NCBI RefSeq assembly: GCF_014930455.1
Contig: NZ_JAAIYO010000006.1
Span: forward strand, 372,001 to 436,000
Length of the DNA: 64,000 bases
Reading direction: 5' to 3'
Source of the DNA: Corallococcus soli
GTDB lineage: Bacteria; Myxococcota; Myxococcia; Myxococcales; Myxococcaceae
Shown here: one piece after another, positions 17,737 to 18,870 of the stretch
Numbering within the stretch: position 1 is the stretch's first letter
Layout of the letters: every line of letters starts with the position of its first letter
Made by a program: the position numbers and the translations under genes
Notes under the pieces: generated by a model
Seen by the model: only the letters and a program-made list of their open reading frames with translations
What the model was told of the DNA's origin: nothing
Database searches by the model: none

Positions 17737-18870
17737 ATGGGAGTGTCTTCCCTGCCCGCGCCCCTGGACCTGCGACGCCGTCTCGCGACGGAGGCGCTGG
17801 GGTGTGGGCTGCTGGTGGTGGCGCTGGAGGGCTCGCACCACGTCGCGGAGCACCTGGGCGCGAGCGCCACGGAGGGGCGCCTCTTCGTGTCCCTGTCGTG
17901 CGGCGCGGTGCTGGCGTGCCTCTTGTGGGTCCTGCGGCCGCTGTCCGGCGCGCACCTCAACCCGGCGCTCACCTTCGCCGACGCGCTGGGGGAGCGCACG
18001 CCCTGGCGCGAGGTGCCGCTGTACGTGCTGGCGCAGCTCTTCGGCTGCCTCGTGGGGCGGCTCGTCGCGCACCGCATGTGCAACGAACCGCTGCTGCTCG
18101 CCGCGCGCCCGCCCGCGGCCGACGGGGCCCGGTTCCTCACGGAGATGGTGGCGACGTTCGGCCTGCTGGTGGTGGTGCGCGGCTGCGTGCGCACGCGCCC
18201 GGCGGCCATGCCCCTGGCCATCGCGGGGTACGTGGCCGCCACGGTGTGGTTCACGGACTCGCGCTCGCTGGCCAACCCGGCGCTGGTGCTGGCGCGGGCG
18301 GCCAGCGCCCACCTGGGCGTGATGAACCCGCTGGAGGTGGAGTCCTTCGTCGCGGCGCAGCTGCTGGGCGCGGCGCTGGCGGTGCTCCTCTTCCGCTGGC
18401 TGCTCGGCGGCGCGCCCCGGCCCGCGCCCGCGGCGCTGGAGACCGTCGTCTTCGAGTGCGCGGACCCGGGGCCCGCGCACCTGGCCGCCGCGCTCTTCAA
18501 CACGCTGGCCCATCCGGAGCGCGCCTGCGCGGTGGCGGCGCCGCCGCCGTCCGCGAGCGAAGCCGGGGCCCCGCCGGCCGTGGAGGCGCTGATGAAGGAT
18601 CTGCACCTGCGCCGCGCGCCGCTGAGGGACCGGGGCGTGCCCGCGTCGCACTACGTCCTTATCGAGGTCGCGGGCCAGGCGCCGGGCATGGACGCCCGCG
18701 TGCGCGAGCGCTGGTCGCTGCCCGCGCTGTCCCTGACGGACGACACCGGCGCGAAGGCCCTGCAGGCCGCCCTGCGACCGCGAATCCTCCAGCTGCTCGC
18801 GCGCCGGGGCTGGGAGCGGCTGCACGTCGTGAGCAACCCCACGCCCGAAGGGCCCCGCGCCCTCAGTTGA
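17737..18870 (+). CDS. aquaporin (MIP) fused to a degenerate LMW-phosphatase/arsenate-reductase domain
   Basis: A 377-residue fusion. Residues 12-225 form an aquaporin-like channel with six hydrophobic segments and two NPA boxes (N75-P-A in S-G-A-H-L-N-P-A and N180-P-A). The second box lacks the usual following arginine. Residues 235-365 read like a low-molecular-weight tyrosine phosphatase/ArsC domain: V-V-F-E-C at 237-241, A-A-A-L-F-N at 250-255, W-S-L-P and a C-terminal helix I-L-Q-L-L. The catalytic loop C-x5-R is broken, since Cys241 is kept but the arginine position is A247, and the general-acid Asp-Pro segment is also missing. Arsenate reductase-aquaporin fusions are known elsewhere; here the enzyme looks dead and may be regulatory. 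The ATG has GAGG just upstream. Confidence 0.75.
   Translation: MGVSSLPAPLDLRRRLATEALGCGLLVVALEGSHHVAEHLGASATEGRLFVSLSCGAVLACLLWVLRPLSGAHLNPALTFADALGERTPWREVPLYVLAQLFGCLVGRLVAHRMCNEPLLLAARPPAADGARFLTEMVATFGLLVVVRGCVRTRPAAMPLAIAGYVAATVWFTDSRSLANPALVLARAASAHLGVMNPLEVESFVAAQLLGAALAVLLFRWLLGGAPRPAPAALETVVFECADPGPAHLAAALFNTLAHPERACAVAAPPPSASEAGAPPAVEALMKDLHLRRAPLRDRGVPASHYVLIEVAGQAPGMDARVRERWSLPALSLTDDTGAKALQAALRPRILQLLARRGWERLHVVSNPTPEGPRALS

Follow-up and report, generated by a model that had tools for sequence, protein, structure and literature searches.

A single gene of Corallococcus soli joins a channel of the AqpS type to a C-terminal domain with the predicted fold of ArsC and LMW-PTP proteins, and this domain, judged by its residues, has ceased to be an enzyme. 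We are highly confident of these two points taken together, the anatomy of the fusion and the death of the enzyme. The explanation we favor, namely an AqpS-lineage channel with a non-enzymatic structural or docking tail, arsenate being reduced in trans, is plausible but tentative. The gene lies in the window, by which we mean the whole stretch of 64,000 nucleotides that was analyzed, and is composed as follows:

17737..18870, + strand: whole gene, AqpS-type channel plus an ArsC-fold domain predicted to be catalytically dead, 377 aa from ATG 17737
17776..18408, + strand: MIP/aquaporin channel, residues 14-224 (Pfam MIP 4.2e-22; helices in the model; Foldseek matches to aquaporins)
17959..17967, + strand: NPA box 1, residues 75-77
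18274..18285, + strand: NPA box 2, residues 180-182, followed by Leu183 where the selectivity Arg is expected
18433..18819, + strand: predicted dead ArsC/LMW-PTP-fold domain, residues 233-361 (sequence match, profile-profile comparison, AlphaFold model, fold search)
18457..18480, + strand: broken P-loop, residues 241-248, with Cys241 present, one residue short and Pro246 in the Arg column (alignment)
18667..18684, + strand: counterpart of the CGxxCP resolving-cysteine segment, residues 311-316, both Cys gone (alignment)
18712..18729, + strand: counterpart of the WPLxDP segment, residues 326-331 (Trp-Ser-Leu-Pro-Ala-Leu), Trp present, Asp-Pro gone (alignment)
18820..18867, + strand: C-terminal tail, residues 362-377, past the end of ArsC enzymes (alignment)

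Translation may begin slightly further in than listed, at the GTG at 17743, because this codon is found at the corresponding position in all 14 full Corallococcus copies and ATG 17737 is absent from several of them. At the other end of the protein, the stretch around residues 362-377 carries an (E/D/Q)GPR motif common to the copies of Corallococcus, Citreicoccus and some others.

The channel half belongs to the MIP/aquaporin superfamily both by its profile (Pfam MIP 79.5 bits, cut-off 25) and by its two NPA boxes. The original prediction had pointed out that the usual selectivity arginine is lacking after the second box, and this is true: the fusion has Leu183 in this place, and L003, an AqpZ-like channel encoded in the same genome, carries Arg. 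Sinorhizobium meliloti AqpS, however, has Val there, and a hydrophobic residue in place of Arg is a trait of AqpS channels. Since the missing Arg is common to S. meliloti AqpS, we do not read it as evidence of a special mechanism; its loss would be a trait of the AqpS lineage that needs no special explanation. Most unfused relatives have FANPAV boxes, and one of them (L021) gave a 56.5% match to the annotated S. meliloti AqpS. Another MIP group without the selectivity Arg is described in the accessible part of PMC8355241.

The C-terminal domain was harder to name. Alone against Pfam it gave no convincing match to LMWPc or any other family, and LMWPc in turn matched none of 27 fused domains. 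A standalone 137-aa protein of the same genome, itself a Pfam LMWPc member (E 3.3e-8), matched it at 34% (E 8.1e-7). A profile made from 27 of the 44 fused tails aligned with the 12 intact myxobacterial ArsCs at an hhalign probability of 98.7% and a pairwise E of 1.5e-16, ArsC being the one family compared in this manner. Against PDB sequences, with E 10 as the limit, the same profile found a single match, to an arsenate reductase (E 0.77), too weak to count alone. When the tail alone was modeled with AlphaFold (mean pLDDT 81.3), the best PDB match of the model was the arsenate reductase 1y1l (Foldseek E 9.2e-6; Z 14.5, rmsd 2.4 over 117 residues), with LMW phosphatases within 1 Z unit of the arsenate reductases and a mitoribosomal protein also close behind. 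As the LMW phosphatases score nearly equally, the fold alone cannot separate ArsC from phosphatase, and the sequence profile has to supply the remainder. The alignment behind this model included standalone ArsC rows, which biases it towards the ArsC fold. A full-length model (mean pLDDT 84.3), made from an alignment free of ArsC rows (39 of the 44 full fusions, that of the window included, and 14 of the 19 other rows), showed the same order of strands and helices in the tail; the Foldseek matches shown for it were all aquaporins and hence gave no independent fold match for the tail. Profile and fold searches thus place the domain in a predicted ArsC/LMW-PTP fold and not in another, in line with the kind of domain originally supposed. 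The proposed fusion itself, of an aquaporin with a phosphatase-type domain, was confirmed, residues 14-224 and 233-361 lying in one polypeptide.

The catalytic residues were counted in one MAFFT alignment of 44 non-redundant fusions and 12 intact myxobacterial ArsCs. Copies of the same gene had been collapsed, which left 44 full rows (at least 300 aa) and 19 shorter ones (17 channels without a fused domain plus 2 fusions truncated by contig ends). The nucleophilic Cys was retained in 35 of the 44 fusions, the P-loop Arg in none, the second (resolving) Cys in none and the third Cys in one; the Asp of Asp-Pro was found in none and its Pro in three. All 12 intact ArsCs retain every one of these residues and fit the three-cysteine scheme given for ArsC in the accessible part of PMC9454679. 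In the nine fusions without the nucleophile, both Citreicoccus copies included, the position of Cys241 is occupied by Ser or Leu, and three of the nine have a Cys two residues earlier. In addition, 43 of the 44 are one residue short in the loop that follows Cys241 when set against ArsC.

These counts require one correction to the original prediction. Cys241 is indeed present and the Arg is indeed missing, but Ala247 is not what replaced it: with the loop one residue short and the alignment anchored on the next helix, Pro246 falls in the Arg column and Ala247 is the residue after. The absence of the second catalytic segment, Asp-Pro, was rightly noted, and the loss of Arg, on which a survey of homologues had been proposed, turned out to be general. 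It had also been considered that some homologues might have an intact C-x5-R loop at a shifted position; none of the 44 does. The sole C-x5-R string among them (L088) falls after the first helix and was taken as chance. By its residues, the fused domain is predicted to be catalytically dead in every fusion examined. What the window protein shares with the active AqpS-ArsC fusions is the channel and the ArsC-fold domain in one polypeptide, but not the catalytic residues of the reductase.

A dead domain of this kind had been proposed to act as a regulatory sensor gating the pore; the ligand to be bound would be an oxyanion or a thiol. The tail lies presumably on the cytosolic side of the membrane, as MIP topology would have it, which would suit a sensor, as would the retention of Cys241 in most fusions and a fold that is that of an arsenate-binding enzyme. 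However, the Arg of the oxyanion loop is missing in 44 of 44 and the loop itself is shortened in 43, and Cys241, the one reactive residue able to sense arsenite or redox state, is the very residue replaced by Ser or Leu in 9 of the 44. In the copies of Myxococcus and Archangium, moreover, the middle of the domain is partly deleted, and the missing selectivity Arg is no help to the proposal, being shared with S. meliloti AqpS. With the binding-loop Arg lost throughout and the Cys lost in nine copies, we consider gating by the tail improbable and the least supported of the explanations.

If the domain is dead, is it still held by selection? In 91 pairs of the 14 Corallococcus copies, the two copies cut at contig ends being excluded, the median dN/dS was 0.291 for the dead domain (maximum 0.541) and 0.135 for the channel. 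The corresponding value was 0.153 for 14 ArsC genes of intact type from the genus (a set that takes in paralogues and leaves out the short L144) and 0.460 for a degenerating standalone ArsC paralogue of Corallococcus, of which 15 copies were compared. Within the 18 Myxococcus-like rows among the 44, dN/dS amounted to 0.124 for the channel and 0.457 for the dead domain. Between these rows and Corallococcus it rose to 0.260 and 0.932, respectively, with dS large and near saturation, and identity was 74% for the channel versus 32% for the dead domain. Within genera, the dead domain is thus under purifying selection, weaker than that on intact ArsC; over longer times the constraint looks weak, with dS near saturation. 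The domain is held, but loosely.

This looseness brings up the strongest rival to our explanation. The dead domain could be a vestige, fused by loss of a stop codon, deprived of catalysis since reduction was done elsewhere, and now in slow decay without function. Such a decay would be in keeping with a dN/dS that, within Corallococcus, is roughly double the channel's, with the value of 0.93 and the low identity between Corallococcus and Myxococcus, with the deletions in the middle of the domain in Myxococcus and Archangium, and with the fact that a standalone ArsC paralogue of the same genus is also shedding catalytic residues. On the other hand, the main fused clade has no short members apart from the two copies cut at contig ends, dN/dS stays below 0.55 in all 91 Corallococcus pairs, and Trp326, Gly358, Trp359, Arg361 and Leu362, core residues of the fold, are invariant in the alignment of 27 main-clade tails. 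We regard a mere vestige as rather unlikely, although it deserves more weight than the other rivals.

The standalone paralogue just mentioned (L115-L129; G000:C1:486754-487164 in the window genome) appears to be decaying stepwise. Eight of its 15 copies have an intact C-x5-R and have lost the CGxxC pair; in the seven others, that of the window genome included, the Arg has also become Ser.

The fusion is not confined to C. soli. It was present in all 16 genomes of the genus that were searched, full-length in 14 and cut at contig ends in two (G002 and G005, the dead tail being seen separately for G005 only), and in 46 of 96 genomes of the family Myxococcaceae; these 46 were picked by eye from the search of the phylum and checked against open reading frames. 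No fusion with an intact reductase was seen in the family genomes, and outside the family no fusion was found among 195 genomes of the phylum, with about 10 candidates scored per genome. Eight plasmid regions around AqpS relatives were inspected for an intact fusion that could serve as a positive control, and the seven of them that are annotated contain no fusion. In a tree of 64 channel rows the fusions fell into two groups, a clade of 44 rows (100/100) and the pair G023/G122 (100/88), the tree program warning that it could not place the long row of G122 (L095) with certainty. The well-supported branches require two changes between the fused and unfused states, which would mean either that fusion occurred twice or that it occurred once and was undone once. 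All fusions examined appear dead in both clades.

Six unfused relatives from other Myxococcota (L021, L022, L023, L024, L105 and L107) hint at how the fusion came about: they carry an intact arsC 0 to about 90 bases after aqpS. In the ars cluster of S. meliloti the two genes even overlap by 4 bases. Since aqpS and arsC adjoin in the unfused relatives, the downstream arsC is the likely source of the fused domain. We propose that, early in Myxococcaceae, an AqpS-lineage channel gene was joined to the arsC lying just behind it, and that the fused reductase would then have lost its catalytic residues and kept its fold as a cytosolic tail.

Two further joined frames were observed near AqpS genes. 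In G123 (L106:1025-1879), the end of an AqpS channel is in frame with what appears by eye to be the C-terminal part of another ArsC type, without the P-loop; this is perhaps a third, broken fusion or else a deletion product. In G054 (L027:1832-3064), a single open frame near an unfused AqpS holds an intact ArsC and, upstream of it, a sequence resembling an acetyltransferase by eye. Fusions of arsN with arsC are mentioned in the accessible part of PMC6205960.

According to the explanation we favor, the tail would now be a non-enzymatic module for folding, assembly or docking of a partner, and a structural or docking role of this sort strikes us as a reasonable working assumption, held tentatively. 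The channel would still let a small uncharged solute out of the cell, most likely As(OH)3, which would be made in trans by a separate intact ArsC of the same genome. The window genome does encode an intact standalone ArsC (G000:C12). That arsenite is the solute is a guess in which we place slightly less trust than in the role of the tail. Against the explanation stands the setting of the window gene, which lacks a further trait of AqpS channels, the location inside an ars cluster: no such cluster was seen around it, its neighbors being thiL upstream (divergent) and a sensor kinase downstream. A search of the locus for RNA elements, promoter or terminator patterns found none.

As to arsenite pumps, it counts in favor of the explanation that in the window genome no protein reaches the cut-off for Acr3 or the NCBIfam cut-off for ArsB; one protein exceeds the Pfam ArsB cut-off (61 bits vs 22.2), and an ArsB-like pump is conceivable from this match. 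Also in its favor, among the family genomes Acr3 over the cut-off occurred in 12 of 46 with the fusion versus 27 of 50 without it (Fisher p 0.007, kinship and genome incompleteness being ignored). With the genus Corallococcus taken out, p was 0.02, kinship again being ignored, and inside genus g41 it was 0.13 (6 of 18 versus 6 of 9). Because the contrast is weaker inside g41 alone, it may reflect only kinship. The channel may also have changed its substrate, as the main fused clade sits on a long stem in the channel tree (1.37 changes per site).

Many relatives also have a neighbor of the MgtC family, and this suggests a function unrelated to arsenic. Of the 42 main-clade genomes placed, 24 carry a gene for an MgtC-DUF4010 protein just downstream of the fusion and in the same orientation, at a distance of some 25 to 250 bases in those loci that extend to it; the gene is found across genera whose other neighbors differ. 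The tally covers 42 of the 46 fused genomes, with G002 and G005 (cut at contig ends) and G023 and G122 (second clade) left out; G005 has no DUF4010 match and G002 has one fragment elsewhere. In the second clade, a short MgtC gene directly follows the fusion; the gap is about 40 bases in G023, and in G122 the two genes overlap. Since PF02308 matches few places in these genomes (four in G023, two in G122), such a position is unlikely to have arisen by chance.

One could imagine that the channel and its tail act in the membrane as one module with a protein of the MgtC family, in the service of ion or phosphate homeostasis and not of arsenic, with the tail as the docking site. MgtC of Salmonella is reported, in the accessible part of PMC6658541, to activate phosphate uptake via PhoR. 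Yet 18 of the 42 main-clade genomes lack a copy next to the fusion; the window genome is one of these and has no DUF4010 match at all. Moreover, the two MgtC types, MgtC-DUF4010 in the main clade and the short one in the second, differ in their domains. We hold this module to be distinctly unlikely. The same low probability applies to its boldest form: that twice in Myxococcaceae an AqpS channel was fused with the neighboring reductase, the enzyme died and the gene was paired with MgtC, the dead reductase being re-employed for docking or sensing inside a new channel-MgtC complex through which ion or phosphate balance would be adjusted.

Within the window genome, the kinase reading frame ends about 40 bases after the fusion, and MgtC-DUF4010 is missing from that gap. 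In other Corallococcus and Citreicoccus genomes (L033, L034 and L041 were compared), MgtC-DUF4010 lies between the fusion and the sensor kinase.

Fusions of a channel with an enzyme are usually explained by the product passing straight to the pore. A clade in which the fusion outlives the enzyme splits that idea, as the tether or the fold may merit keeping even with no catalysis left. Should the tail serve in regulation or docking, it would constitute a pseudoenzyme on an aquaporin and a test case for the re-use of a detoxification fusion, with the recurring MgtC neighbor as a concrete candidate partner.

We found no description of a dead ArsC fused to an aquaporin in the literature searched, most subscription papers being outside its reach. 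AqpS proteins with a long cytoplasmic C-terminus are mentioned in the accessible part of a paper on Frankia (PMC4531530). Among the closest known systems are actinobacterial AqpS-ArsC fusions such as that of Salinispora tropica (Wu, Song and Beitz 2010), for which arsenate resistance through a catalytic ArsC is reported in the accessible parts of PMC12838822 and PMC6205960. Like that of Corallococcus, the Salinispora protein unites an AqpS-type channel with an ArsC domain in a single chain; its ArsC, however, is reported to be catalytic, whereas the Corallococcus fusion keeps only Cys241 of the catalytic residues tested. S. meliloti AqpS is of the same channel lineage, likewise lacks the selectivity Arg after the second NPA box and has arsC adjoining, as in the unfused myxobacterial relatives, but there AqpS and ArsC are two proteins, encoded in an arsR-aqpS-arsC-arsH cluster, and not one fused protein. 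With the thioredoxin-linked ArsC/LMW-PTP proteins (LMWPc), the tail shares the predicted fold and the order of secondary structure elements, and its first helix and GWxR end resemble those of intact ArsC; it differs from them in the loss of C-x5-R, the resolving Cys pair and Asp-Pro and in having no Pfam LMWPc match. A phosphatase fold kept without catalysis is also seen in the pseudophosphatases STYX and MK-STYX, which, unlike the tail described here, belong to another phosphatase class, are eukaryotic and are not known to be joined to a channel. It would appear, then, that a detoxification fusion of a known kind has become something non-enzymatic in Corallococcus and its relatives in the soil.
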